From: Ignavibacteria bacterium
Lineage (GTDB): Bacteria > Bacteroidota > Ignavibacteria > Kapaibacteriales > Kapaibacteriaceae
NCBI GenBank assembly: GCA_013204605.1
Contig: JABMNI010000060.1
Span: forward strand, 1 to 64,000
Reading direction: 5' to 3'
DNA: 64,000 bases
A program made the position numbers and the translations under genes. Position 1 is the stretch's first letter, and every line of letters begins with the position of its first letter. Shown one piece after another: positions 34,166 through 49,600 of this stretch. The notes below the pieces were generated by a model, which saw nothing but the letters and a program-made list of their open reading frames with translations, was not told where the DNA came from and did not search any database.

Positions 34166-36043
34166 TTGATTTTTTTCAACAAAATAGTCCGAACTCTGGC
34201 AGGTTCGATGATAATGCTATCAAGCATAGTTGCTTTTGCCATACCGTCAAGTGCGCAGTACACAGACAATGTGGGAATTGGAACGGCGACCCCCGACCCA
34301 TCCGCATTGTTAGAGTTGAATAGTACCACAAAGGGATTCCTAACCACTCGGCTCACACAACTTCAGCGTGACGCCCTAACTCTTCCTGCCACAGGGTTGA
34401 TAATATTTAATACAACAGCAAAGACATTCCAGTATAACATTGGTACAAATTTCGCGCCAATTTGGGTGTCGATGTTGTACATAAATATCGACGGCGGATC
34501 TAGCTCCAAAGCCTTTTGGAGTTTGCGTGGAAACAACTCTGTGGATGCGGCCGTCGACTTTCTAGGCACTCGGAACGACCAGTCCCTAATTATAAAAACC
34601 AACGACTCAACTCGAATAATTCTAACGCCAACCGGCCAGATGCTCATTAATTCCAACGTGGAAATAACGGGAAGTCTGTTGCTTGTTGGAAATACATCGC
34701 CCTTGATATTGGATGGAGATCCGGGAGTAGCCGGTCAAGTGTTAGTTAGTAGGGGGCTAGGACTAACGCCCGAATACACAGACAGTTTGGGACTAAGCCG
34801 CCTGAGTGTTTCCGGTGGTTCTTCGTTTGGAGATACTGCCGTATTTCTAAACCTCCCACGCCTCCCTTTAAACCGTGGCTACATGTTGGTTGGCGATTCA
34901 TCCAATATTGCCCAGCCATTTGCCCCGGGTACCGATAGTACCTTCCTTGCCACCTTTAATGGCACTCCCGTTTGGTTTGATTTGGCAAAACTCTTGCGTA
35001 ACACCGCTTGGATAGTTGGCGGAAATACATCTCTATCAAGTCCGATTATTGGAAATATGGACACCACCGGTGTTCGCGACTTGGATGTGCGAGCAGGTGG
35101 AAGCAGTCTGATCTATTTAAACGGTACAGCAAAAACTATCGAGCTTAAAGCTCCAACGAATATTACGGGAGCAACTAGTTCACTTGGCATGAATGGCAAC
35201 GAGGGGATAAGCGGAAGTCCGTTGGTTTCTCAGGGTCCAGCACTCACTCCAAGGTGGATTTCCAGTATTAACATCTCCGATACGGCCTTTAAAATATCGG
35301 CCCCAAATTTTGAAACATCTTTATCAACTAATTCAAGTTTTTATGGTCCCACTTTATTTACAAATTCGGTTGCCATCACTGGACAAGCAACCTTCACACT
35401 GCTGCCCTCGATACCGCTAGACTACGGACACATCCTAGTAGGCGACACTTCGAACGTTGCAGTTCCTATTGCACCTGGAACAATTGGCTCGATCTTCCAA
35501 ATAGTGGGAGGCAAGCCAACGTGGGTTCAGCCATCTCAGTCAGCATATTGGTCGCGTGTTGGTAACGCGGGAATATCGCCTACTGAGTTTGTTGGAACTA
35601 CAGACGCTAATGATTTACGACTGGCAACGGACGGCCAAACAAGGCTTACGCTGTCAGCTGGTTCAGGGATAGTCACTCTTTCGTCACTCGGCGGTACACC
35701 GAGCTCAGTACCGTTAGGTCCGACAGATGGAGTGGTAGTAGCGGATGCCAATGGACAGTTAGGAAAGGTTGACAAATCAACCCTACTTAACCTCCTAGGT
35801 ATCCACAGTGGTCGTTTTGAGAACAGTACAACTGCAACAATGTTCACCGTTGTTATTACAATGCCGGTGGGTATAACTTTTGCAGGGAATGCCTCTATAA
35901 ACCTCACTCCCGAAGCCTCTACGAGTGTGTCAATCACCCCTTTTGTTGTCAACGGGTCACGGACCTCAACCCAATTCACAGTAAACTTCCCAGGCGGCCT
36001 CAACCCAGGGGAAGCTCTTAACTGGACTGTCCACAGTCCTTGA
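34166..36043 (+). CDS. Surface fibre-like protein with W-GN-FLGT repeats
   Basis: The 625-residue protein has a signal peptide (hydrophobic IMLSSIVAFAIPSSA) then DNVGIGTATPDPSALLELNST, a segment common in fibre-like proteins of Bacteroidota. It contains two or more copies of a repeat of about 110 residues with the pattern W..xGN....(F/V)(L/V)GT.D.(Q)xL.(I/L).T......R.....G, for example near residues 110 and 470. The start is uncertain. TTG at 34166 gives a charged n-region (FFNKIVRTLAGS); the first ATG is at 34208, and the ORF extends to 34010. A 7-bp inverted repeat (36024-36039) lies at the end. It opens the surface cluster. No enzymatic domain or T9SS domain is evident. Confidence 0.72.
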   Translation: MIFFNKIVRTLAGSMIMLSSIVAFAIPSSAQYTDNVGIGTATPDPSALLELNSTTKGFLTTRLTQLQRDALTLPATGLIIFNTTAKTFQYNIGTNFAPIWVSMLYINIDGGSSSKAFWSLRGNNSVDAAVDFLGTRNDQSLIIKTNDSTRIILTPTGQMLINSNVEITGSLLLVGNTSPLILDGDPGVAGQVLVSRGLGLTPEYTDSLGLSRLSVSGGSSFGDTAVFLNLPRLPLNRGYMLVGDSSNIAQPFAPGTDSTFLATFNGTPVWFDLAKLLRNTAWIVGGNTSLSSPIIGNMDTTGVRDLDVRAGGSSLIYLNGTAKTIELKAPTNITGATSSLGMNGNEGISGSPLVSQGPALTPRWISSINISDTAFKISAPNFETSLSTNSSFYGPTLFTNSVAITGQATFTLLPSIPLDYGHILVGDTSNVAVPIAPGTIGSIFQIVGGKPTWVQPSQSAYWSRVGNAGISPTEFVGTTDANDLRLATDGQTRLTLSAGSGIVTLSSLGGTPSSVPLGPTDGVVVADANGQLGKVDKSTLLNLLGIHSGRFENSTTATMFTVVITMPVGITFAGNASINLTPEASTSVSITPFVVNGSRTSTQFTVNFPGGLNPGEALNWTVHSP

Positions 36044-36137
36044 TTACACGCTAAAAAAACAAAAATTGTTAACAGGAAAAAAAATAAATACATCTAATAA
36101 TTCTCACTTATTTAATCACACTTCATGGAGTAAAACC

Positions 36138-37010
36138 ATGCGATTTTCAACTTTTCTGAAGGGCGGCTTATTACTAGCTGCTTTCTTCATCATTTCATCT
36201 GAAGCGTTTGCACAGTTACCTGTACGAACACGTACGCTTCAATTATTGGGTTCCACAAGTGGTGCCGTTACTCAAGACGCACCAGCAGTGGTGACACCGT
36301 ATACTGTCTCTTGGCCAGCCAGTGCTACAGGTTTCCTTGCAGATGCAGATAAAGGCTACTTGCTAGGAACTAGAACGGCCGCTAACGACATCGACATGAC
36401 CTGGGTACAACTGTCAGGCGACCTTGTTGACGGTGCGGGTGCTGCAGGACAGGTTGCTTACTGGACTGACGCTAACACGTTAGCAGGTGACGCTGGTTTC
36501 ACTTACACAGCGGGTGGAACCGTAACGGTAGGTGAAGCAGGTAACAATGGTGTTGTAGTATTCCATGACGCTGGACTTGCTGCTGACGACTTTACAACAA
36601 CCCTTGGTAATGGAACGCAAACCACAAACAACACGTTCAATTTTGATGCGCCAACAGTTGGTGGCACATATACAGTGCCTGTTTCGACAAACGGTGCAGG
36701 TGCAGGTACTACGAATTTCATTTTCGTAAGTAATGGAAATGGAACTGGAACTTGGGTTACCAATCCAACAGCAGGATTGAAATCAGGTATCGTTACTCCT
36801 GCCAATGGTGCATTCTCAGCAGCAATCGTGTTCGGAACTGCATTCGCGTTAACTCCATCTGTAACCGTAACGGCTAGTGGACCGGTGGCTAACGGATACA
36901 TTCTGCAGGTTACTGCTATTACATTTAACGGTTGCACAGTTCTTTCTTCGGCTCCATTTGATGGTACTGACGTAATCAACTGGGTAGCTAACGCTCAATA
37001 CAACCCGTAA
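36138..37010 (+). CDS. Secreted surface protein, QLPVR family
   Basis: The 290-residue protein has a clear signal peptide (MRFSTFLKGGLLLAAFFIIS, cleavage after FA). The mature start, QLPVRTRTLQLLGSTSG, is also seen in the next protein (QLPVRAREVQLISNN). The rest is Gly/Thr/Ala-rich beta sequence with many polar turns, and no known domain was recognised. The ATG at 36138 is preceded by GGAGT at about 10 nt. The larger ORF from 36066 adds residues before the signal peptide and was not used. Confidence 0.8.
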   Translation: MRFSTFLKGGLLLAAFFIISSEAFAQLPVRTRTLQLLGSTSGAVTQDAPAVVTPYTVSWPASATGFLADADKGYLLGTRTAANDIDMTWVQLSGDLVDGAGAAGQVAYWTDANTLAGDAGFTYTAGGTVTVGEAGNNGVVVFHDAGLAADDFTTTLGNGTQTTNNTFNFDAPTVGGTYTVPVSTNGAGAGTTNFIFVSNGNGTGTWVTNPTAGLKSGIVTPANGAFSAAIVFGTAFALTPSVTVTASGPVANGYILQVTAITFNGCTVLSSAPFDGTDVINWVANAQYNP

Positions 37011-37023
37011 TTCTTCAAACGCA

Positions 37024-37075
37024 GGGGACCTTGTCCCCAGCGTTCAGGGCGCAGCCGCGCGTTGCTCCCTGAACG
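37024..37075 (+). promoter_or_regulatory. Two tandem hairpins between surface genes
   Basis: GGGGAC-CTT-GTCCCC (37024-37038) is followed by CGTTCAGGG (37041-37049) pairing perfectly with CCCTGAACG (37067-37075). The second stem ends 10 nt before the next ATG. There is no T-tract, so a processing, stability or translation-control structure is as likely as a terminator. Confidence 0.7.
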
Positions 37076-37085
37076 TTTACGCATC

Positions 37086-39470
37086 ATGAGATTGCCTAAC
37101 AACCATATCGTCCGCCTAATGGCGGTAATAATCACAGTGCTACTCAGCACAGCGATAAACACGTACGCGCAACTGCCCGTGCGTGCACGCGAAGTGCAGC
37201 TAATTTCGAACAACAGCACGAATTATACTCGCTTGCAAGCCGTGAATGGTCAGGTGACTAATTGGACGTTGACGTATCCTGCAACAGTGGGTACAACAGG
37301 ATCCTTACTATCGAGCACGGTAACTGGTGCTACGGCTGCTACTAGTTGGCTTGCACCAGGTAGCAATGGAGATCTACTTTCAATTTCAGCGGGTATTCCC
37401 GCTTGGAGCAATCCGTCCACAATTATGTGGCTACTTGCAGGTAACCCTACCACCACAGCATGGAATGGTGCTGCAGGATCTTTCATAGGTACCACCACCA
37501 CACAGCCCCTTTCGATAGCAACAACTAACGCAACGGCGCAAGACATCAACTTTTACACCGGTGCAGCTGGTGCGAATTTGCGAATGACAATTGGCAGTGC
37601 AGGAGCAATTACGTTGTATGGAACGGCCGGAACTCCGAATGTCACACTTACATCGGCGGGCGGAGCGGCAAATGTTGCTATTCCAGGTGGTTATGATAGG
37701 GTATTGGTTTCGAATGCAACGGGAGATGTTTCGCAGACAACCTACAGTGCTATTGCAGCGCAAAGTTCTTGGACGCTGCTAGGTAACGCGGGAACAGCTC
37801 CAGGAACAAACTTCTTAGGAACTACGGATGCGCAAGCGTTGGTACTCCGTACAAATAATGTTGAGCGGCTTCGCGTAAACTCGACAGGTGAACTTGGCAT
37901 TGGTACAACTGCTGCGGCTGGATATTCGTTGCATGTAGGTGGAACCGCCGGGACTCCGAACGTGCGGTTAGACGCAACGGGTGGAGTTGCGAATGTTGGT
38001 ATTCCAATTGGTTATGATAGAGTATTAGTTTCGAACGCGACAGGCGATGTGTCACAAACATCCTATAACTCCGTGGTTTCGACATTTGCCTGGTTACTTG
38101 CAGGTAATGCATCCGCTTCGGCCTGGAATGGTGCCGCAGGATCGTTCCTTGGTACAACAACCACGCAGCCCCTTTCAATAGCAACAACGAATGCAACAGC
38201 GCAAGACATCAACTTTTACACCGGTGCAGCTGGTGCAAACTTGCGGATGACAATTGGCAGTGCAGGAGCAATTACGTTGAATGGAACGGCCGGAACTCCG
38301 AATGTTACGTTAACATCGGTGAGTGGTGTTGCTAATGTTGCCATTCCTGTTGGATATGACCGCGTGTTGGTTTCCAATGCTACAGGAGATGTTTTTCAAA
38401 CGACTTACAACGCCATAGCATCGCAAAGTTCTTGGACGCTGCTAGGTAACGCAGGAACAGCTCCAGGAACAAACTTCTTAGGAACTACGGATGCACAAGC
38501 ATTGGTGCTCCGTACAAATAATGTGGAACGGCTTCGCGTAAACTCGACAGGTGAACTTGGCATTGGGACGACGGCAGCAGCGGGCTACTCGTTGCATGTT
38601 GGAGGCACCGTGGGAACACCGAATGTTCGACTTGATGCAACCGGGGGAGTTGCCAACGTTGCGATACCGGTTGGATTTGACAGGGTGTTATTATCGAATG
38701 CACTTGGCCAAGTATCGCAGACGAGTTACTCAGCGTTGGCGGCCGCGACTGCATGGACACTGTTGGGAAATGCAGCTACAAATCCTTTGATTAACTTTTT
38801 GGGCACAACAGATGCACAACCACTTATAATAAGTACGAATAGTTTAGAACGAATCAGAGTAATGTCGAGCGGTGAAGTGGGAATTGGCACAACGGCTCCT
38901 GCCACGGCTTTCGAAGTAAACAATGGTAACATTCAAATTGGTACCAGTGTATTAGGTTTGGCTGGAAGTTTACGTTTTGAAGAAGATGCCATTAACGGTA
39001 ATAATTTCGCTAGTTTTAAAGCGGCTTCATCTATGGTGGATGATATGACGTACACCCTGCCGGCTACCATTGGTACCACAGCCCAGGTGCTTAGAATTGC
39101 ATCACTACCATTGCCAACAGCTACTACAGCTACATTAGAGTGGGCTCCGGTTTTCGTGACCCCAGGTGTGGTAACAGTGGACATCATTATAGATGATCAA
39201 AATGTAGTAGTCGCCGCAAGTACGACGTTTTTGAGACTCGTTGGAGATGCTCTTCCTGCTGCACGGACCGTACTTTTGGCAAATGGTGTTACTAACGGTC
39301 AGCACTTGGTGATACGTTGCGTGGCGGCTGGTGCCAATGGAGTTCAATTCTTGGATGCTGGTAATTTGGCACTTTCTGGTAATTTTAACTTGAATAACAG
39401 TGATACTATCACATTGATTTGGGATGCTGCCACGAACGAATGGTTGGAAGTAGCACGACGGAACAATTAG
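37086..39470 (+). CDS. Surface fibre-like protein with long tandem repeats
   Basis: The 794-residue protein has a signal peptide (LMAVIITVLLSTAINTYA) and the mature start QLPVRAREVQLISNN. It is dominated by a 221-residue tandem repeat (unit 1 about residues 115-335, unit 2 336-556, then a partial third). Each unit holds two related half-units of the form W.LLGN....NFLGTTDAQ.L.(L/I).TN..(E)R(L)RV.S.G..GIGTT. The C-terminal part (from about 690) ends SDTITLIWDAATNEWLEVA, similar to the end of the next protein. The ATG at 37086 is used. The function is unknown; a repeat-built surface fibre or adhesin is plausible. Its stop codon lies in a heptamer repeat. Confidence 0.85.
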   Translation: MRLPNNHIVRLMAVIITVLLSTAINTYAQLPVRAREVQLISNNSTNYTRLQAVNGQVTNWTLTYPATVGTTGSLLSSTVTGATAATSWLAPGSNGDLLSISAGIPAWSNPSTIMWLLAGNPTTTAWNGAAGSFIGTTTTQPLSIATTNATAQDINFYTGAAGANLRMTIGSAGAITLYGTAGTPNVTLTSAGGAANVAIPGGYDRVLVSNATGDVSQTTYSAIAAQSSWTLLGNAGTAPGTNFLGTTDAQALVLRTNNVERLRVNSTGELGIGTTAAAGYSLHVGGTAGTPNVRLDATGGVANVGIPIGYDRVLVSNATGDVSQTSYNSVVSTFAWLLAGNASASAWNGAAGSFLGTTTTQPLSIATTNATAQDINFYTGAAGANLRMTIGSAGAITLNGTAGTPNVTLTSVSGVANVAIPVGYDRVLVSNATGDVFQTTYNAIASQSSWTLLGNAGTAPGTNFLGTTDAQALVLRTNNVERLRVNSTGELGIGTTAAAGYSLHVGGTVGTPNVRLDATGGVANVAIPVGFDRVLLSNALGQVSQTSYSALAAATAWTLLGNAATNPLINFLGTTDAQPLIISTNSLERIRVMSSGEVGIGTTAPATAFEVNNGNIQIGTSVLGLAGSLRFEEDAINGNNFASFKAASSMVDDMTYTLPATIGTTAQVLRIASLPLPTATTATLEWAPVFVTPGVVTVDIIIDDQNVVVAASTTFLRLVGDALPAARTVLLANGVTNGQHLVIRCVAAGANGVQFLDAGNLALSGNFNLNNSDTITLIWDAATNEWLEVARRNN
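37428..38900 (+). repeat. 663-bp near-identical tandem repeat inside a surface gene
   Basis: Unit 1 spans 37428-38090, unit 2 spans 38091-38753, and a third begins at 38754 in the same register but diverges and ends by about 38900. Long stretches of units 1 and 2 differ by only a few synonymous changes. Within unit 1 a second half-repeat begins at 37770. The unit is a whole number of codons, so copy-number change would keep the frame. Confidence 0.9.
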
Positions 39471-39498
39471 TAATCAGCAATTAACAATTAGCAATTAG
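39464..39498 (+). repeat. Heptamer tandem repeat across a stop codon
   Basis: Five 7-bp units of the CAATTAR type run from 39464 to 39498 (one, TAATCAG, is diverged). The first contains the stop codon (TAG, 39468-39470) of the fibre-like gene. A T-run follows. Period and location resemble the array at the prfC 3' end, but the sequence differs. Confidence 0.75.
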
Positions 39499-39528
39499 CA
39501 TTTTTTTCATTAATATTTCGGAGGCCTC

Positions 39529-40821
39529 ATGCGCGCCCTTTTGACCTCAGTCTTGGTGCTCCTCCTAGGTTCTATGATCTCCTTGGCCCAGGATACATCG
39601 TACGAAACCTTTAACGCTATCAGGTTGGAAAACTCTTCCAATCCTGGTGCCTTTGTAACTCTAACAGCGCCTACGGCAACCACGAGTTACACTCTAATCA
39701 TGCCAGCATCCGGACCCACGGCTTCAGGTAGCTGGTCGTTTTCGGCAAATAGTTCGGGTGATGCCATGAGCTGGTTTGAAACACCTACGGGTGCAGCCAA
39801 CCAGGTTGGATTCTTTACGGGAACCAATGCGGTGGTGAGTACCAGTAACCTTACATGGACCCAAGCATCGCAACAACTTGGGGTGAATAGTACGTTACCC
39901 GGGGCGATGTTAACGTTGTCGAAAACTGGCGTGACCCCGTCGGCATCTAAATCTATGACATTGTCGAATACCATGACTTCGGCCGTCAGCACAACAAAAA
40001 CATTATTGTCATTAGATGCATCGGGAAGCATGGCCTCTGGGTCCACTGTCACCGGATTAAATGTCACCGTTGCGGGCGGTACGAATAACTACGCAGCCCT
40101 GTTCAACGGCGGAAGAATCGGAATTGGGACTACCACTCCTAATACTCGGTTGGATATAGCCGGATCGTACTCCGTGAGGGAGTATAATTATACCGGAGCA
40201 TTGTCGAATACGAACAACGACTTTTCGTTCGTCGCCGGCAACGACCAGAGTTTCATTCGTGTGGGAACAGCTAGAACCGTCGAAACCATTTTCAATGGTT
40301 TTGCCGGTGGTGTAAATGGAAAGTTTCTTACCATTTATAACGCAACGGGTAGCATGATTAGGTTAGCTCACGAGAGTACTGTATCGACTTCTACAAATCG
40401 TATTTCTGCCCCGGGAGGAATTGATGTTTTGGTTCCGAGCACCGCAGCCTACCAGCTAGTGTATTCAGAAACGGATCAGCGCTGGATAATTCCATACGTA
40501 GGTGGTGGAAATGGTAACTGGCAAGGTTACAAGGATGTTGAGGCGACCTTAACAAACGGTACAACTGGAATGCCTACGGCGAATGCATCCTACATTCGAG
40601 TGACCACGGGAGATAATCAACCAAAGTATGAGGTATCGTTGGAAGACGGCACGGCTATTGGTCAGTTTTTGGTCGTTGAAAATTTTGGTCCGAAAAACAT
40701 AGAGTTCACCGGCACTAACTTCCAAATTCATGCCGCTGATCAAGTTTTATCTTTGGGAAATTCAATCCTATTCATCTGGAACGGAGCGAAGTGGATTCAA
40801 GTTGCAGAGGCACAGAACTAA
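39529..40821 (+). CDS. Secreted surface protein
   Basis: The 430-residue protein has a signal peptide (MRALLTSVLVLLLGSMISLA) and the mature start QDTSYETFNAIRLENSSN. A fibre-like segment with GGRIGIGTTTPNTRLDIAGSY lies near residue 195. The C-terminal domain ends QVLSLGNSILFIWNGAKWIQVA, matching the end of the upstream fibre-like protein (ITLIWDAATNEWLEVA). A strong GGAGG lies 4 nt before the ATG. No catalytic motif or T9SS domain was seen. It is part of the 34-47 kb surface cluster. Confidence 0.82.
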   Translation: MRALLTSVLVLLLGSMISLAQDTSYETFNAIRLENSSNPGAFVTLTAPTATTSYTLIMPASGPTASGSWSFSANSSGDAMSWFETPTGAANQVGFFTGTNAVVSTSNLTWTQASQQLGVNSTLPGAMLTLSKTGVTPSASKSMTLSNTMTSAVSTTKTLLSLDASGSMASGSTVTGLNVTVAGGTNNYAALFNGGRIGIGTTTPNTRLDIAGSYSVREYNYTGALSNTNNDFSFVAGNDQSFIRVGTARTVETIFNGFAGGVNGKFLTIYNATGSMIRLAHESTVSTSTNRISAPGGIDVLVPSTAAYQLVYSETDQRWIIPYVGGGNGNWQGYKDVEATLTNGTTGMPTANASYIRVTTGDNQPKYEVSLEDGTAIGQFLVVENFGPKNIEFTGTNFQIHAADQVLSLGNSILFIWNGAKWIQVAEAQN

Positions 40822-40824
40822 TTC

Positions 40825-41229
40825 ATGCCGATTGCTCGGTACCATATTGTCAGTCTTCTGTTTATCACGTTGGTCGGATTTTGTGTTTTTTTTCCAACAA
40901 TGACAAAGTCCCAAACATTGGTAAACATGGGCGCTACCATTACGTTAACTGGTGGCGCACGAATGTTTGTGAGTGGCAACACGGTAAACGAAAAGGGAAA
41001 GATTGATGTTCTCGATCTTGCTCGAATTACGTTCGATGGCGATGTGACTATCAAGCGCGATGGCATCTATTTTTACAAGGATGCTTTCGGTACAATTACG
41101 AAGGACCTTGACATCAAACTTGATGGAGTGTGCTGGCGGTACAAACCGGGCACTCTAAATGTTTTTGGAACAATTCGTAACGATGGCGAATTGAATAACG
41201 ATGGTGAGATAAATATCGGCAAGCCATGA
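40825..41229 (+). CDS. Small secreted protein of the surface cluster
   Basis: The 134-residue protein has a signal peptide (about 1-29) and a short beta-rich body with TLTGGARMFVSGN, VNEKGKIDV and IRNDGELNNDGEINI. Alternating 'N-x-G-x-I' turns recur in the two larger proteins downstream, so they may share a fold. The family was not recognised. It starts 3 bp after the previous stop and overlaps the next gene as ATGA. Confidence 0.75.
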   Translation: MPIARYHIVSLLFITLVGFCVFFPTMTKSQTLVNMGATITLTGGARMFVSGNTVNEKGKIDVLDLARITFDGDVTIKRDGIYFYKDAFGTITKDLDIKLDGVCWRYKPGTLNVFGTIRNDGELNNDGEINIGKP

Positions 41230-43334
41230 CAAGTAATGTAAAATACATTTCAGATTCAACGGCGGCGTATATCGTCGCCGTTGTTTTCTGTGTGTGCTTT
41301 TTACTAACAGGAATGGTTCAGCCCCTTGCCGCCCAACACCTTGAAAATACCGTGACGGGGAGGGTGAAAAATAATGGGACGATACGTTTTAAAAGTGACT
41401 CTGGACGTTACAAAAACGATGCGCCGCTAACATCGATTACCAACAACGTAATTGAATTTGCCGGACAGAATAACCTGTTTACAGATCTGGCCGGATCTCA
41501 GTTTAATACAAACGCACTTGGGCAAAATGCTCTGTGGCGTGTGCCTGGAATGGTGCGATATGCGCTAAAGGATGGCCGCGCACAACTTGTGCAACAGCGC
41601 TATTACACCAACTTGGAAATGTCCGACAGTTCAGACAAACAAATTCCCGACAGTGTTTTTGTGAGCGAATGGTATACGATTTTCTTGTCGGGTCCGCGAA
41701 CATATTCGGGAACGTTTTTCTACGATGGGAATCTCCGTCAGATAATTATGCAGGAAAAGGGGCTAAGTGGTACGGTGAATAGGTACAACAACCTCACGTT
41801 TCAGAATGGACCCAAAACAGTTGCTTCGGGTTCGGAAGTTTGGATGGACGGAATATTTTTCACCGATTCGTTATCGCCCTCTACTATTGAAGGTGACTTT
41901 CACTGGGGATCAAAATCCTATTTGCATTCGCGTGCAGAGTTAATTATTGGTGGAACGCTTACTGCCGGTAACGACATAAGTGACTTGCATGCAAACGTGG
42001 ATGTGCGCCGCGGAACGTTCATCATAAAAGACGATGCTGGATTAGTTACGATTTTTCCGATCGCTACACTTACAACGGAAGACAACGTAGCGGCAGAACT
42101 TGTGATGGGTAAGAATACCAAAATGGACGTGCGTGGTTCGTTTGTAAATCTCCATGGTCCATTGGTGAACACCACTTTCGATATTACATCGTTGGTGAAT
42201 TACATCGGCTTACAAGATCCACAAATCATGCAGGCAACGGCACTCACTAATCCGTATGGAAATTTGCGAACTGCAACAACGGTGAAAAATGCGTCGGGCG
42301 ATATTCATGTTGCGGGCACGTTGTCTGTGAACGACACAAACGTTGTGATGGTGCCCTACACTATGAACCTTACCCTCGGTGATGCCTCGTACACAAACAA
42401 TGCAGAAGTTGTTGGAAACTTCCGTCGGCGTCTAACTGGTGCTGTGTTGAATACGACCTACATGTACAATAACAGTGAGACATTTTTCCAGTACACAACA
42501 ATTCCACAAGAGCTGGCACTGGATGTTAGACCTACAACAAGACCGAACGACTATGACATGACTACCGACGTCTTCCGTAAGGTGACAGTAAGCCACACTG
42601 GTGACTGGAAAGCCAAGGTAAGAGTAGGCTATAAAGCAGAAGATATTCCCGCAACGTGGGGTCCGCTCACCGCCGAGCGACTACTAAAAATATACAACGC
42701 CTATCCCGCACCCAACGAGCGCTCAACAAAACTTACTCCTACATTGCCCCCTACCTATGACCGGCGCCCATTATTGCTAAGCACTGGAATTGCCTATGTA
42801 GAACTGACTGGCATTCAAAACAACGGCCCCGACAATCTGCGTCTGGATAATGGTAACGATTTGTTGCTCCGTGGTAGCCGCGATACATTGCGTGCCGCAG
42901 CAAGTGGCCGTTGGAGCAATCCGTTTACCTGGGATGAAGCGCGCGAGCCCGAGCCTCTTGACCGAGTTATTATTGATGGCTTTACCGTCCACACAGGATA
43001 CGTGAGAGCCAATGATAATTACGCGATTGAAGAGCGTTGGCCCGACAGTATGGCTGTGAGCGTTACTATTAGTAACACACCGGCTTCAACATTGACCTTT
43101 GGTAGTGTGGGATCATTCAACACGTTCTCACTTGTTCCAAACGCTGTTGTTACGTTAACAAATCAGCGCGTTGCGCCAACGTTGGTGCCAACACTTACGC
43201 AAGACATAACAGCGGCCGATATAGATGGTGGCTTGATTGTGTATCCGGCTTCAAACTTCACCGCACCCAATCTAATTCTCACCCTTGGTGCCACAGCGTT
43301 CAACGCCGGCACGTTACAAATTGGTGTTAAATAG
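41226..43334 (+). CDS. Large secreted surface protein with G8-like segment
   Basis: The 702-residue protein has a signal peptide (VAVVFCVCFLLTGMVQPLAA). Beta-rich sequence follows with TVTGRVKNNGTIRFKSDSG, then repeated 'G-xx-xL-x-V-x-G-T-L' elements. Near residue 555 SGRWSNPFTWDEAREPEPLD followed by RVIIDGFTVHT resembles the start of a G8-like carbohydrate-related domain. No T9SS type A domain is clear at the C-terminus. It is translationally coupled to the small gene upstream (ATGA). Confidence 0.75.
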   Translation: MTSNVKYISDSTAAYIVAVVFCVCFLLTGMVQPLAAQHLENTVTGRVKNNGTIRFKSDSGRYKNDAPLTSITNNVIEFAGQNNLFTDLAGSQFNTNALGQNALWRVPGMVRYALKDGRAQLVQQRYYTNLEMSDSSDKQIPDSVFVSEWYTIFLSGPRTYSGTFFYDGNLRQIIMQEKGLSGTVNRYNNLTFQNGPKTVASGSEVWMDGIFFTDSLSPSTIEGDFHWGSKSYLHSRAELIIGGTLTAGNDISDLHANVDVRRGTFIIKDDAGLVTIFPIATLTTEDNVAAELVMGKNTKMDVRGSFVNLHGPLVNTTFDITSLVNYIGLQDPQIMQATALTNPYGNLRTATTVKNASGDIHVAGTLSVNDTNVVMVPYTMNLTLGDASYTNNAEVVGNFRRRLTGAVLNTTYMYNNSETFFQYTTIPQELALDVRPTTRPNDYDMTTDVFRKVTVSHTGDWKAKVRVGYKAEDIPATWGPLTAERLLKIYNAYPAPNERSTKLTPTLPPTYDRRPLLLSTGIAYVELTGIQNNGPDNLRLDNGNDLLLRGSRDTLRAAASGRWSNPFTWDEAREPEPLDRVIIDGFTVHTGYVRANDNYAIEERWPDSMAVSVTISNTPASTLTFGSVGSFNTFSLVPNAVVTLTNQRVAPTLVPTLTQDITAADIDGGLIVYPASNFTAPNLILTLGATAFNAGTLQIGVK

Positions 43335-43368
43335 TTCACGAACCATATTGCCCCTTTTAAAAGCAATC

Positions 43369-45462
43369 ATGCACGCAAGTGTGTTAGCGCTTCTGATGTG
43401 TGTACTTTCATCCGTCGAAGCCGTCAGCCAACTGCCTAGTATTTTAAATTCCGATGGCGTGATTTACAACACCGGCACAGTAAAAATTGTTGGCGACGCG
43501 CAGCTCGCACAGGATTCAATTGGCGGTGTAGTGCGGTACGAAAGAGACAATGTGCTGGACACACAAAAGGTTGCACATTTGGTATACAACGATGTGCACT
43601 TTGAAGGCGCTTCGAGAAAAATGCTGACCGATGCCAGCAAACCATTGATTGCCGACCATCTTTTTTGGAGTATCGATTCGAGTGTAGTTTTCACACTCAT
43701 CCCCAACACGTATATCCAGGCAAACCAAACTGTCGTGCACGAGGGCGTAATTAATCCAGCATTCAGATACGGGCGATTTGTTCTGCGTGGCACTGCAAAC
43801 CAAGATGTTTCCGGTAAGGGGCTTATCCCCATTCTTGAACTAGATAACTCGCAGGGGGCAACGGTTACAAGGTCGGGCGGACTACGAGTTTTTGAGCGAC
43901 TTGATCTTCAGCGCGGATTACTAAGTAACTCTACTTCTGATAACGTTAACATGGAACGCAACGCGTGGATTTGGCGCGATGATAGTGGTTCGATTGCTGA
44001 GCAACCCGTTACCGATCGCGATTTGAGTCTTAGGTATTATGGTGGTGCACCAATGGTTGGCGGACCGGAAATGCTCAGGTCGAAAACGTTGATACGTAAT
44101 CTTTTTCAGCATGATACGGCCGGGCTAACTCTCCCGTGGGATGTATACGTGAAGGACTCACTTGTGCTTCGTGGACACATTCTTACGGAACCAACAACAG
44201 CTGACCGATACACGTTTTATTACACAAGCAAGAACGATCCGTTGTTCGAGAGTGTATGGCCCGAGATAAATGGTACGATGGTTCGGACTAGTTTAGAAAT
44301 CGACAGTCCGATGATGATGAATAATCAGTACACAAATATATACTTTGCAAATGCGGCAGAAATGGGAACGGTGTCGAGTTACTCTGTACGTAGTAAACCG
44401 CTCACTATTCCTCTTCCACTGACCGACATTGTATTTAAGGCAGAACGATTCCTGCAACTCAAGGCGTTTGACGCTGCCGGTGATCCTGTGCCTGATAGTA
44501 CGTACACGCTAACGTTTGGATATGCATGGAGAAACCGTGAAGCTGCAAGTTTCGAAACTCCTAGTGTAGTTGAAACCATCCCACAGCTTCGTGGAAAGGA
44601 AGATTTACTTGGCCTTATGCGTCACGATGGTTTTAGTTATAACCCATACGGTTTTTCAACATTGCCAACAAAGTTTACAACAAGCCCACTAGAAGTTTGG
44701 AGATATTCAAAGGCCAACTTTGTTAGAGCAAGTGGAGATTTTGCCATAGGCTTGTCGACCGGTCCGTTGTGGGTATTGAATACGAGAATATTTCTTGAAG
44801 GACCCATGCGTGAGTATGGCGATGGTATACAACCTATCATGTCAACCGACCTTGCGCTCCGAGGCTTGATACCCAATGTGGCTCCAGACATTTACCCCTA
44901 TTCACTGGACCCAGACAGGCTAGTTGATACGGCGCTGTTTGTACCCGACTCCATAGTGGACTGGGTAACTGTCGAATTCCGAACTACTGCAACGGCAAGT
45001 GGTCCGCCAGCACTAATTGAATCTTTGCTTCTCACGCGCGATGGAATGGTGCTCGATCCGCAGACACTTAAGCCGCGAGTAATTGCGGGCATTTCGCCTG
45101 GACAGTACAACCTTGCGTTTCGCCACAGGAATCACTTGGCAGCAGTTTTAGAAGACAAAGTTTTAGTTGACCGTTCGAACATTGGTTTTGTCGTTGATCT
45201 TACCAAGGGCGTCGGCCTTCTGGGCGGAGCGTCATCGCAAAAACTTTTGGGCACGGTTGGTGGCACAAGATTCTTTGGTCTGATTGCGGGTGTTGTTACA
45301 TCGGCCGATGAAATCCTGCGTACTGATTACAACCTCGTATGGGACAGTAGAGATTTGGAAGCCTACTCGCTATTCGACACTAACCTCAACGGAATAGTAA
45401 ATACTCGCGATTTAAATATTACGTGGAATAACAGGAACAGGTTGAGTGTTGCGCCGCGTTAA
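43369..45462 (+). CDS. Large secreted surface protein with dockerin-like C-terminus
   Basis: The 697-residue protein has a signal peptide (MHASVLALLMCVLSSVEAVS) and early repeats similar to its neighbours (ILNSDGVIYNTGTVKIVGDA). A segment near residue 580 (TVEFRTTATASGPPALIESL ... SPGQYNLAFRHRNHLAAVL) is common in surface proteins of this group. The last 45 residues (TDYNLVWDSRDLEAYSLFDT, then NLNGIVNTRDLNITWNNRN) look like a dockerin-type calcium-binding module. The ATG at 43369 is used; the longer ORF from 43285 overlaps the previous gene. The function is unknown. Confidence 0.78.
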   Translation: MHASVLALLMCVLSSVEAVSQLPSILNSDGVIYNTGTVKIVGDAQLAQDSIGGVVRYERDNVLDTQKVAHLVYNDVHFEGASRKMLTDASKPLIADHLFWSIDSSVVFTLIPNTYIQANQTVVHEGVINPAFRYGRFVLRGTANQDVSGKGLIPILELDNSQGATVTRSGGLRVFERLDLQRGLLSNSTSDNVNMERNAWIWRDDSGSIAEQPVTDRDLSLRYYGGAPMVGGPEMLRSKTLIRNLFQHDTAGLTLPWDVYVKDSLVLRGHILTEPTTADRYTFYYTSKNDPLFESVWPEINGTMVRTSLEIDSPMMMNNQYTNIYFANAAEMGTVSSYSVRSKPLTIPLPLTDIVFKAERFLQLKAFDAAGDPVPDSTYTLTFGYAWRNREAASFETPSVVETIPQLRGKEDLLGLMRHDGFSYNPYGFSTLPTKFTTSPLEVWRYSKANFVRASGDFAIGLSTGPLWVLNTRIFLEGPMREYGDGIQPIMSTDLALRGLIPNVAPDIYPYSLDPDRLVDTALFVPDSIVDWVTVEFRTTATASGPPALIESLLLTRDGMVLDPQTLKPRVIAGISPGQYNLAFRHRNHLAAVLEDKVLVDRSNIGFVVDLTKGVGLLGGASSQKLLGTVGGTRFFGLIAGVVTSADEILRTDYNLVWDSRDLEAYSLFDTNLNGIVNTRDLNITWNNRNRLSVAPR

Positions 45463-46750
45463 CATATTTGTATTTCTCGTGTTGTGCTGGTTAGCCCCTT
45501 TCAATGAAATGGCGGCTCAGCCAACTGATGCAATAGTTCGAATTTCGCCGTTGCTAGATCCGGTGTTTGAGCGGATGACGTTTGACGTTACGCTGCATAG
45601 GGTAAGCGATAAGTGGCATTACTGGGCAAATATTTCGCTGAGAATTGAGAGTGTGGATTTACAACTGACTGGTGGTTTTAATCCTGCTGTACACGTACTT
45701 ACTATGGTGCCGGGCTCGTCGGATTTACTGCAAGTGCCATACACGCCGGGCGCTATGGCTGGGTATTTTATCGACGCAAAGTTTGTAAACGGTCAGATTG
45801 CTTTGCACGTTATTGGTCCCGACAGCGTACAATTTGCGAAGTCGATTGCAAATCCTGATTCGATTAAAATTGGGCAGTTCATAGTAACTGCCACCGACAA
45901 TTCATTTGTGCCGGAAGTTCTTGCGGCTTCAACTCCGCTTGACTACTTCAACGCCAACGCATTTAAAATCGATCACGATTCGGCTACAGGAGCAGGCGCG
46001 GGGTCGAACACGTGGTATGTAAAACACGATAACCCGCCGCTTGTTACCGAGTATTTAGCTTCGCCACCACCGCCCGACATTTGCGATGCAAAGTTTGTGT
46101 TTACCGGACAATACGAGGGCGATTTAAAAGTAGGCCTGCAGTTTAAAGTATCAGACGAACACTGCTACGAAGGTTTTTGGATTGAGCGATCGATAGTAAA
46201 CTTGAGAGACCTAACAGATTTAACATTCGAGACCCTACCACAATTGTTGTATCAAAATGAACCGCGGTTGTTGTCGTGCCAATGTTTACTGCCTCAGGTT
46301 CACGACAGTTTGTTTGATGACGTAGAGTACCGCCGCGAGATATACGCATATCGACTGATAGGTCAGCGCTTGCCAAACTATGGTGACACCGCCCAAATCA
46401 TCGACACAATTTTTGTTAGAATTCCCAACGCGATTATTTCAAATGCCAAACTGCTCGACAACCCGTTTAGAGATGAAACTACAGTGCAGTTTAATGTTGA
46501 TGATCGGTTGTTCCTCACAGCGCGCGTTTTTGATTTAGGTGGTAGGCTAATAGGAACCTTGGTCGACGACAAAGGCCAGGAAATTGTAAACAAAGAATAT
46601 GCCGCCGGAGTTGGGTACCGTGCCCTCTGGGAAGCCCCAGACATCGCCTCGCAGGGTCTATTCAACATCGTACTCATTGGCATCCCATACCGCGACAATT
46701 CCATTGAAGAACTATCCCGAGTAATCTTAAAAGCTCAGCTTGTAAGATGA
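45446..46750 (+). CDS. Secreted protein with T9SS-like C-terminal domain
   Basis: The 434-residue protein starts at a GTG overlapping the previous gene by 17 bp. It has a signal peptide (MLRRVNIFVFLVLCWLAPFN, cleavage after AA). The middle is beta-rich with four or more cysteines (ICDAKF, DEHCYEGFW, LSCQCLL), which may form disulfides. The C-terminus (NAKLLDNPFRDETTVQF ... ARVFDLGGRLIGTL) resembles a FlgD-like/T9SS type A sorting domain. It overlaps the barrel gene as ATGA, repeating the cargo plus barrel pattern seen elsewhere. Confidence 0.78.
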   Translation: MLRRVNIFVFLVLCWLAPFNEMAAQPTDAIVRISPLLDPVFERMTFDVTLHRVSDKWHYWANISLRIESVDLQLTGGFNPAVHVLTMVPGSSDLLQVPYTPGAMAGYFIDAKFVNGQIALHVIGPDSVQFAKSIANPDSIKIGQFIVTATDNSFVPEVLAASTPLDYFNANAFKIDHDSATGAGAGSNTWYVKHDNPPLVTEYLASPPPPDICDAKFVFTGQYEGDLKVGLQFKVSDEHCYEGFWIERSIVNLRDLTDLTFETLPQLLYQNEPRLLSCQCLLPQVHDSLFDDVEYRREIYAYRLIGQRLPNYGDTAQIIDTIFVRIPNAIISNAKLLDNPFRDETTVQFNVDDRLFLTARVFDLGGRLIGTLVDDKGQEIVNKEYAAGVGYRALWEAPDIASQGLFNIVLIGIPYRDNSIEELSRVILKAQLVR

Positions 46751-47556
46751 AAAAGTTGCTACTCAATATCGCTGTTATTTCTGTGCTAGGGGGCTCTCCC
46801 ATGCTTGCTCAGATATTTCAGACGGGAACGTCCGACGAGATAGATCAAGCAAAGGACTCACTGATTTTACATCATGAGTGGTGGTTGGGATTAAATACTT
46901 CGGCTTTTTACGCACTGAATTTTGGCACACTCACAGTGGAATATGTTGGAGGCACATCTCCAGGTTCCGAACCGATTTATGCTAAAACACAGGGTGGTTT
47001 TGCCTATGGTATTGGTACAGGCATCGCTCTTGAGTACAGGCCGTTTCAATCGCCGTTGGGTTTCATACTAACCTTGGCGCCGGAGTGGCGATGGATGAAA
47101 AGCGAATCAACGGTTCCGATAAAAAATGATATTTATGCGTACAACGCTACATTTGAAACGCAGTCCAGAATTATATACGCGGTAGCATCATTAGCAACAA
47201 AAGTTCAAATTGGAAGAAGCGGAACCTTCCTATTATTCGGACTTAACTTTGACTTACCGTTGTACACTATTGATACGTTTCTATGGCAGCATGAAATTCC
47301 CGACGGAAATCCAACCAACGATGAACCGGGAGCGCCACAAACCAGTATCAAGTTTGCTACGCATGTAAATTTCAAACCAAGGGTTGGATTGCAAATTGGC
47401 GTTGGACACGATATATTAGCCGGGCTTTTCGGATACCGCGGTCAGCTAATCACGCCATACATTTGTTTACAAGGAGCAACGCCAACAGTTTCAGACCCAT
47501 CATCGTGGAATGGCGCTAATGTGCGCTTGGGAGCGATTTGGAGGTTTGGTTTATAA
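46747..47556 (+). CDS. Outer-membrane beta-barrel protein of the surface cluster
   Basis: The 269-residue protein has a signal peptide (MKKLLLNIAVISVLGGSPML, cleavage after LA). Amphipathic strands include FAYGIGTGIALEYRPF, FLLFGLNFDLPLY and the terminal NVRLGAIWRFGL. It is an outer-membrane barrel of unrecognised family. It is the last gene of the 34-47.6 kb cluster and overlaps a T9SS-like cargo gene by 4 bp, so it is likely linked to export or anchoring of the cluster's products. Confidence 0.78.
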   Translation: MKKLLLNIAVISVLGGSPMLAQIFQTGTSDEIDQAKDSLILHHEWWLGLNTSAFYALNFGTLTVEYVGGTSPGSEPIYAKTQGGFAYGIGTGIALEYRPFQSPLGFILTLAPEWRWMKSESTVPIKNDIYAYNATFETQSRIIYAVASLATKVQIGRSGTFLLFGLNFDLPLYTIDTFLWQHEIPDGNPTNDEPGAPQTSIKFATHVNFKPRVGLQIGVGHDILAGLFGYRGQLITPYICLQGATPTVSDPSSWNGANVRLGAIWRFGL

Positions 47557-47682: not shown

Positions 47683-47702
47683 CCCCGGTTTACCCGGGGT
47701 TT
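47683..47702 (+). terminator. Terminator hairpin at the end of the surface cluster
   Basis: CCCCGG-TTTAC-CCGGGG forms a 6-bp G/C stem followed by TTT. It lies 126 bp after the barrel stop and overlaps the last codons of the convergent histidine kinase gene. The T-tract is short, so efficiency is uncertain. Confidence 0.5.
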
Positions 47703-49600
47703 GCTGTTTCTAACACGTTGGTTGGCTTTACTTTTACCCGAAGCGTAAAGCATGCTCCACAATCAGGATGTTCTTCAAGATAGATAGTACCATCTGTTCT
47801 TTCCGCCATACGTTTCGCTAGGTACAAACCTAATCCAAGAGAATCCTCGCCAGCTGTCGGCTTATTGCTCAGTTTAGCGTACTTGGTAAACAACTTGTTG
47901 CGTTCTTCAATTTTGATTCCAGGGCCCTGATCAATCACCCGGGAAAAAGCATAATTCTCATCGGCGGAAACATCTAAAACAACTTCTGAATTCTTCGGAG
48001 AGTACTTAATAGCGTTCGAGATGAGATTGTCCATTACAGCATCAACTATCGACGCGTCGGCCATACCCCAAACTTGTTGTTGAGAAGCTATCGACAATGC
48101 AATTTTCTTTTGGTCTGCTCTCGACTCAAATCTTTCCATGGCTCTATGTGCCATGTGAACCATGTCCAGAGTCCCAGACATCGTTTCTGAAGCTCTCCTG
48201 TCTGTTCTACTTACTTCCAGGAACGAGTGCACGGTTGCACTCATTCTTGTTGTTGTGGTAAGTAGATCTTTGCAAATAGCGAAGCAATCTTCCATTCCCA
48301 AATCGCCGTAATGATTTAGTATGGTTAAAAGCATACCGCGCATATCGGCTAACGGGTTACGCAAATCATGCGCCGCTATGGCCATGAATTCATCTTTCTC
48401 AGCAGCAAGTTCTTTCAATTCCGCATTGGCGGTTTCAATGGCCAGCATGGCTGTCGATAACTCGACATTTCGTAGCCGGTAGATTTCTTCTTCGCGATCC
48501 TTGCGTTCTTTTTCAAGAATACGTTGGACGTTTCGAAGCCTATTACTCATGGCTTCGTCATGCTCAAGAACATATTCATCCGCCCATGTTGCTAACATTC
48601 TCACCGACTCTTCACCCCGGCCTACGTCTGCAAGTGTCAACGCAAGCTCCTTCAGTGCCTGCATTGTTGCAATGTGTGCTCGAACTTCCCGTAAATAGCT
48701 GATCGATTTTTGCAAGAGGCTAATAGCGAGTTCATGGTTGCCGAGTTCGCGTTCCAACTTGCCCAAGCCCATTAACCAGTAGCCCATCCGATACTTGTTG
48801 TCTTCAAGTTTGCTGAGTTGATATGCTTGTTCTAAAAGTGGCCTTGCTTCGTCGCGCTTTCGTTGTTCTAAATAAAGAAAACCAAGGTTGCCAAGTACAG
48901 GACCAAGTATAGCGTCGAATTTGTGAATCTTCAAAAAATCACGCGCTTCCAATAACGCTTGCTCATGCTTGGCTTCATCGCCTAGGTATTCATGTACACT
49001 TGCTTTATTAGCCAGTACATAAGCCATAACAATTGGAACAGCTGCAGATCGGGCAGCCGTCATAGCTTCTTCAATGAATTCTTGTGCTGTTTCGCGTTTT
49101 TTACGCTTCGCGTGCAGGATTCCAATTTGACATGCAGATTGCGCTACGTCACTAAATCCACCAGACTCTTTCTCGATATTATAAGCACGAGTGAAAAACT
49201 CAAGTGCTTGAGCATCATCATCTCTACGGGCACAAAGTTCGGCGTAGTTATAGTAAACTACAGCCAACCCAGATTTTCCCCCAAGTTTTTCTCTTAGGTC
49301 TAGCGCAACTTTATACGCTACATCTGCCTTATCGGAAAATCCTAGAGAGTCATACACCCCGGCCATCATCGTCCACACCTTAGCCTGAATTCCAGGCTCG
49401 GCAACATTAGCGTTCCCGTGAATCAACGACTCCAGAATTTCCATCGCATCTTTGTTTCGCTGATGCTGGTGGTACACCATAGCCAAAGTGTATTCACTGT
49501 AAACCTGAACAGCCGGATCTTTCGACGATCTTACCTGTGATTCTTTGGCTGCCTTTAGGGCTTCTTCATATTGCCCAAATCGACTAAAGTGTTGGCTCAA
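47690..49600 (-). CDS. TPR-containing histidine kinase (main part, interrupted gene)
   Basis: The 636-residue cytoplasmic protein has an N-terminal superhelix of TPR repeats (about 1-345, for example FGQYEEALKAAKES and FTRAYNIEKESG), then a coiled coil (about 350-400). A HisKA domain with the phospho-His in AAHDLRNPLADM and an HATPase with DNLISNAIKYSP, VIDQGPGIK and GLGLYLAKRMAE follow. No transmembrane segment or receiver domain is present, and no response regulator is adjacent. The frame starts at a TTG directly after an in-frame TAA (49607-49609). The same frame continues upstream into 65 further codons, so this is probably one 704-codon gene with a nonsense codon. Confidence 0.88.
   Translation of the reverse strand: MSQHFSRFGQYEEALKAAKESQVRSSKDPAVQVYSEYTLAMVYHQHQRNKDAMEILESLIHGNANVAEPGIQAKVWTMMAGVYDSLGFSDKADVAYKVALDLREKLGGKSGLAVVYYNYAELCARRDDDAQALEFFTRAYNIEKESGGFSDVAQSACQIGILHAKRKKRETAQEFIEEAMTAARSAAVPIVMAYVLANKASVHEYLGDEAKHEQALLEARDFLKIHKFDAILGPVLGNLGFLYLEQRKRDEARPLLEQAYQLSKLEDNKYRMGYWLMGLGKLERELGNHELAISLLQKSISYLREVRAHIATMQALKELALTLADVGRGEESVRMLATWADEYVLEHDEAMSNRLRNVQRILEKERKDREEEIYRLRNVELSTAMLAIETANAELKELAAEKDEFMAIAAHDLRNPLADMRGMLLTILNHYGDLGMEDCFAICKDLLTTTTRMSATVHSFLEVSRTDRRASETMSGTLDMVHMAHRAMERFESRADQKKIALSIASQQQVWGMADASIVDAVMDNLISNAIKYSPKNSEVVLDVSADENYAFSRVIDQGPGIKIEERNKLFTKYAKLSNKPTAGEDSLGLGLYLAKRMAERTDGTIYLEEHPDCGACFTLRVKVKPTNVLETANPG

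Follow-up and report, generated by a model that had tools for sequence, protein, structure and literature searches.

The 64,000-nt window of contig JABMNI010000060.1 from an Ignavibacteria bacterium (order Kapaibacteriales), meaning the whole stretch of DNA that was analysed, holds nine genes, g1 to g9, all on the plus strand between positions 34166 and 47556 (Table 1). Signal-peptide-like N-termini are present on all nine products. The gaps from each stop to the next start are, in sequence from g1 to g9, 94, 75, 58, 3, -4, 34, -17 and -4 bp; g8 shares 17 bp with g7 and 4 bp with g9. Because the later gaps are small or negative, g4 to g9 (39529-47556) are nearly contiguous or overlapping. The best explanation of the whole is that g1 to g9 form an operon for a cell-surface fibre, including stacking of some products end to end and anchoring through g8 and g9, and this explanation is on balance somewhat favoured. 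Scans for promoters and terminators in the locus gave counts no higher than the shuffled level and were not used.

Gene order across relatives

An earlier note, made from the letters of this DNA, had described an eight-gene surface locus of mostly unrecognised secreted proteins. Its string of secreted genes stands, with nine members rather than eight, as do the signal peptides on consecutive genes, the tight spacing or overlap of several genes from g4 onwards and the scarcity of recognisable families, since Pfam, NCBIfam and PHROGs match almost nothing in g1 to g9. The barrel gene that it placed at the end of the locus is g9, which resembles an outer-membrane barrel with OmpA-family relatives. 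Within the core, g5 to g9, no catalogued family was matched besides the C-terminal OmpA domain of g9 relatives.

Conservation was examined in 60 genomes of relatives, the surroundings of g6 and g7 being taken as 40 stretches of at most 20 kb each from ten families; 39 of these hold g6 or g7, and the exception comes from a genome that another contig already represents. The string g5-g6-g7-g8-g9 recurs in this order in about 40 relatives from ten families. Neighbouring genes lie at most 300 bp apart on the same strand in 20 of 23 loci for g5 and g6, 28 of 32 for g6 and g7, 37 of 38 for g7 and g8 (overlapping in 28) and 29 of 33 for g8 and g9. Scattering of the genes in relatives had been set beforehand as a refutation of a common system; the genes are not scattered, and order and adjacency kept over ten families point to more than chance. 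Presence is coupled as well: g6 was found in 48 of the 60 relatives, almost always at a single genomic site, and g7 in 47, with both in 46 and neither in 11. Among those genomes without g6 and g7 that were checked, g8 is missing or nearly so. When a g6 profile was run against 395 Bacteroidota genomes, full-length matches fell only inside the window's order and the others were partial; full-length g7 was likewise seen only in Kapaibacteriales.

The 11 relatives without g6 and g7 (G001, G007, G010, G014, G015, G019, G020, G022, G024, G050 and G055) have genomes of 2.0-2.9 Mb, the small end of the range. An extra gene product of about 620-650 amino acids (aa) is encoded between g8 and g9 in some families (loci L078-L081, L098, L103, L105 and L108); the one tested, from L080, is a WD40 propeller whose C-terminus looks sorting-domain-like by eye. 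In other families (L069, L078, L080, L067) the locus is followed by a response regulator with a single domain and by a CHASE/PAS sensor kinase; the window has instead a convergent TPR histidine kinase (47690-49600) downstream of g9.

What lies upstream of the core differs among relatives: between one and five genes of fibre type, or a gene for a giant solenoid protein, or, in a few loci, neither. In the window, the C-terminus of g4 matches PF25692 in Pfam (2.3e-8; 34.8 bits, with the cut-off at 25), while g3, a single copy in its own genome, matches PHROG tail-fibre families at E 1e-7; g1 has no match in Pfam or NCBIfam. Of the N-terminal and repeat motifs that the earlier note had assigned to the locus, QLPVR.R is present in g2 and g3 only, and W-GN-FLGT repeats in g1 (two strict, three loose) and g3 (five), being absent from g2 and g4. 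The GIGT and FLGT repeats of g1 and g3, the PF25692 end of g4 and the PHROG match of g3 resemble phage tail fibres and depolymerases; unlike phage tail fibres, however, these proteins have signal peptides, and the locus contains no phage genes. A phage origin of g3 was rejected because none of 50,697 phage records searched matched it. A heptamer, CAATTAG, stands in five copies at window positions 39464-39500, from the end of g3 into the g3-g4 gap, and slippage at this repeat could alter the spacing to g4.

Table 1. Genes and features of the locus (aa, amino acids; Ig, immunoglobulin; FN3, fibronectin type III; T9SS, type IX secretion system)
Feature	Position	Strand	Remarks
g1, secreted tail-fibre-like protein, 625 aa, TTG start	34166..36043	+	N-terminus VGIGT...P; 2-3 W-GN-FLGT-type repeats
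g2, secreted tail-fibre-like protein, 290 aa	36138..37010	+	mature N-terminus QLPVRTR; relatives upstream of g5 elsewhere
g3, secreted tail-fibre-like protein, 794 aa	37086..39470	+	5 W-GN-FLGT, 3 GIGT; N-terminus QLPVRAR
g4, secreted fibre-like protein, 430 aa	39529..40821	+	phage-depolymerase C-terminal beta-sandwich at end
g5, short beta-solenoid segment, 134 aa	40825..41229	+	open rung ...NDGEINIGKP at C-terminus
g6, conserved core protein, 702 aa	41226..43334	+	a solenoid rung at each end of the mature protein; WSNPFTW...VHTG near C-terminus; end NAGTLQIGVK
g7, conserved core protein, 697 aa	43369..45462	+	N-terminal solenoid, Ig-like middle, C-terminal transthyretin-like + dockerin-like module
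g7 C-terminal module	44839..45462	+	extreme C-terminus common to proteins of many phyla
g8, 434 aa	45446..46750	+	beta-sandwich at N-terminus, FN3-like domain, probable but divergent T9SS type A sorting domain
g9, probable outer-membrane beta-barrel, 269 aa	46747..47556	+	OmpA-family relatives

Solenoid ends and natural fusions of g5, g6 and g7

In four genomes of one family (f7), g6 and g7 are fused in a single open reading frame without a linker. The g6 profile stops there at position 702-705 of 705 and the mature g7 profile starts at its position 22-28, so that the residues at which g6 ends and g7 begins (783/781, 773/771, 763/764 and 816/816) lie at most two apart in all four genomes; at one such junction, the boundary falls between ...SVANGGRIDVA and QNLVSTGIIRNNGRIY.... 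In one genome of a second family (f9), a single 916-aa chain runs, in gene order, from g5 through the greater part of g6 to the end portion of g7. These fusions, of two parts and of three, suggest that the proteins are probably consecutive segments of one filament, and good confidence attaches to the chain order g5-g6-g7. The simplest reading is that, where they are encoded separately, g5, g6 and g7 would join end to end as they do in the fusions.

The ends of the separate proteins are alike. In both g5 and g6 the chain stops abruptly at a rung of a beta-solenoid (N-x-G-x-I-x-I-G), and the motif N-x-G-x-[IVL]-x-[IV]-G stands at the extreme C-terminus of 33 of 37 g5 and 51 of 58 g6 proteins, compared with 4 of 763 other open reading frames, at least two of which encode giant solenoid proteins with a g5-like end. 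In other families, the g5 domain is itself the C-terminus of giant solenoid proteins (2,000-3,400 aa) upstream of the core. The N-x-G-x-I turns that had been attributed to the whole locus are real but relevant to g5 to g7. At the opposite end, mature g6 and g7 open with a similar rung directly behind the signal peptide, and AlphaFold models the first strand of g7 from residue 25 onwards, right behind that peptide. Sequence searches of the PDB with g6, g7 and g8 profiles returned nothing informative.

Open-ended solenoid subunits meet end to end in curli (PMC10192328). Like CsgA and CsgB (PMC10192328), the segments described here, judged from their sequences, would be open-ended beta-solenoids arranged head to tail and continuously. 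However, their sequences differ from those of curli, and instead of a homopolymer there would be large subunits, each encoded once and in fixed order. Pfam and NCBIfam gave no CsgA/CsgB family match in g1 to g9, and no Csg export genes were recognised in the locus.

Alternatively, g5 to g7 may be independent secreted adhesins or matrix proteins that are co-expressed for action at the surface, in which case the fusions would join only functionally related proteins. In its favour, solenoid rungs and WSNP-TW motifs are common among secreted proteins of Bacteroidota, and many unrelated proteins have a C-terminus of the g7 type. It does not account as readily for the fusion of g6 and g7 at their exact ends, free of a linker and in the same rung pattern, for a three-way fusion that follows gene order, or for the joint presence and loss of g6 and g7, and it is considered unlikely.

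The g7 module, g8 and the route to the surface

The last 205 residues of g7 constitute a module whose end is no more than 15 residues from the C-terminus in 69 of 80 proteins and no more than 40 residues from it in 77 of them; the labels of the records include Bacteroidota, Calditrichota, Cloacimonadota and KSB1. Proteins ending exactly in VP, LP or IP make up 44 of the 80 module carriers as against 3 of 370. The module has the appearance of a transthyretin-like sandwich with a dockerin-like pair of loops; its best PDB sequence matches are dockerins (E 0.002-0.1), both calcium loops are readable in many members, and Pfam Dockerin_1 matches 7 of 27 members, at best with 3.5e-5. Save for these scattered weak Dockerin_1 matches, the module is uncatalogued.

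No T9SS sorting domain was found in any of the 80 module-bearing proteins. Instead, the next gene encodes one for 17 of 49 module genes compared with 4 of 261 controls (p ~6e-12), a statistic weakened by its treatment of several genes of one locus as independent. Most of these neighbours have a common N-terminal domain, and in many cases an FN3-like domain comes next, ahead of the sorting domain; g8 shares with them its position and its FN3-like and sorting-domain parts. In one neighbour, the N-terminal domain is a cohesin above the Pfam cut-off. PDB searches with the cohesin-like neighbour domains gave weak matches, from E 0.075, with two chains named only endoglucanase, and were not used as proof. 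On contigs L117-L169 (for example L148:11069-14705), the module often lies immediately upstream of a gene that combines a cohesin-like domain with a T9SS sorting domain, and on a Melioribacteraceae contig (L117:7937-20612) four module-ending proteins are grouped around two with FN3-like and sorting domains. Elsewhere in the window (54545-55204), a 767-aa frame combines a weak cohesin match (E 0.002, below cut-off) with a T9SS sorting domain.

The probable sorting domain of g8 is divergent. Por_Secre_tail (PF18962 type) matches 6 of 25 g8 orthologues, at best with 7e-4, the scored one being listed below cut-off, and it does not match g8 of the window. By profile comparison, the C-terminal 100 residues of g8 match the sorting domains of other T9SS proteins to 2e-11, and the AlphaFold model of g8 has a predicted local distance difference test (pLDDT) score of 89, with the sorting domain mostly at 95-97. 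Neither Pfam nor NCBIfam finds a T9SS sorting domain in g1 to g7. The previous statement that clear T9SS domains are missing apart from the last cargo thus holds for g1 to g7, and is qualified for g8 by a divergent copy that Pfam misses in the window.

The pairing of a dockerin-like end, set behind a beta-sandwich in g7, with a partner gene carrying a T9SS sorting domain recalls the cohesin-dockerin contacts of cellulosomes, and a cohesin scaffold with a T9SS C-terminal domain has been predicted in Cloacimonadota (PMC8542988). Unlike cellulosomes, the locus has neither enzymes nor a multi-cohesin scaffold, and g8 is not recognisable as a cohesin. Identification of its N-terminus as one was rejected after negative results with Pfam (PF00963), in a whole-genome search and in profile-profile comparison with the cohesin-like neighbours; a structure search returned generic Ig-like folds, with cohesins only at ranks 47 and 50. 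Because sequence does not tie the g8 N-terminus to cohesins, docking of g7 on g8 is a lead from gene position. The first calcium loop is also degenerate in the window's family, and AlphaFold gives the dockerin-like end of g7 a pLDDT below 50. With these points set against it, docking is given slightly less than an even chance.

The earlier note had suggested that export may depend on the barrel, which is not supported by the present results. Relatives of g9 outside the window's family (442-518 aa among those fetched) carry a peptidoglycan-binding OmpA domain (E 3e-18), which points to an anchor role, while the window's family has 11 copies, of 253-283 aa, all of which lack it. Furthermore, the host genome encodes the T9SS translocon protein SprA (SprA_N above cut-off) and has 126 T9SS sorting-domain matches. 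The barrel as exporter was therefore rejected as first choice, and g8 is a better candidate for the export of proteins that have no sorting domain of their own.

The locus bears comparison with the type B adhesin modules of T9SS in Flavobacterium johnsoniae (SprB-SprF) and Porphyromonas gingivalis (PG1035-PorP-PorE) (PMC9143113, PMC12618676), of which PG1035-PorP-PorE offers, by analogy, the closest known logic (PMC9143113). In common with them, a genome with T9SS has genes for secreted, often giant adhesins beside an outer-membrane barrel and an OmpA domain that binds peptidoglycan. In contrast to them, barrel and OmpA domain are joined in one protein (the window's family has lost OmpA), a separate protein, g8, bears the sorting signal, and the adhesive part is divided among several, probably stacked, proteins. 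A type B sorting domain (CHU_C) was found at E <=1 in none of g1 to g9, nor in 21 g6 and 22 g7 orthologues. PF11751 (PorP_SprF) matched neither g9 nor anything else in the genome, but the control genomes were silent too; a PorP/SprF identity of g9 was not adopted.

These results bear on the possibility that g9 is a shuttle and anchor barrel combining PorP-like and PorE-like roles, which would itself take over from the translocon those proteins that have no type A sorting domain, by an uncatalogued C-terminal element, either the IEIG rung or the dockerin-like end. Such a role would follow the adhesin, barrel and OmpA logic of PG1035-PorP-PorE (PMC9143113), type B substrates require cognate shuttle proteins (PMC12618676), and common C-terminal end motifs are present. 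The lack of a PorP_SprF match (with the silent control), the lack of CHU_C domains in g1 to g7 and the retention of g6-g7-g8 without g9 in family f7 make it distinctly unlikely. It is very unlikely that the products are periplasmic or structural envelope proteins: seven of the nine lack a recognised outer-membrane export signal, but the tail-fibre and depolymerase-type domains, giant relatives exceeding 3,000 aa and the coupling to g8 with its T9SS signal all point outside. Secretion of the locus products to the surface is likely, with considerable confidence.

Proposed assembly and its significance

The computed features, namely gene order, co-occurrence, fusions, end motifs, the dockerin-like module, the divergent sorting domain and the OmpA domain of relatives, suggest a model in which secretion, stacking, g7-g8 docking, anchoring by g9 and adhesion are inferred. 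In this model, g5, g6 and g7 would be solenoid segments with uncapped ends, stacked in gene order through contact of the C-terminal rung of one with the N-terminal rung of the next. The distal, adhesive part would consist of g1 to g4, or in other families of the giant solenoid protein fused to the g5 domain. As the basal segment, g7 would dock by its dockerin-like C-terminus on g8, the sole carrier of a T9SS sorting domain in the locus, which T9SS would place on the surface, and the g9 barrel would tie the fibre base to the envelope, in most families through a peptidoglycan-binding domain.

A T9SS signal acting in trans is speculative and somewhat unlikely. The complete proposal, in which a heteromeric solenoid filament is stacked in gene order and g7 binds g8 so that the complex is exported and anchored by g8, is tentative and rather unlikely. 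Several observations count against the filament and its base. Fibre-type genes of the g1-g4 kind are present in 22 of 41 loci and missing from nearly half; family f7 has no g9, and g8 is located elsewhere in one of its genomes. A structure search with the g7 model gave no PDB match below E 0.049.

The description of the locus in the earlier note as an undescribed fibre or adhesin assembly system fits the conserved order, the general lack of catalogued families and the g5-g6-g7 fusions, and no paper among those searched was found to describe the locus. The conserved locus is real, and it is probably a fibre locus with products exposed at the surface. If this is right, it represents an undescribed surface appendage of uncultured bacteria, conserved throughout the order Kapaibacteriales, and a rare case in which the assembly order of a heteromeric filament is given by gene order together with natural fusions. 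It would also put a name to a widespread C-terminal module, one that could account for the way in which large secreted proteins that have no T9SS sorting domain get to the surface. If true, the arrangement in trans would serve many module-ending proteins of Bacteroidota, Calditrichota, Cloacimonadota and others.

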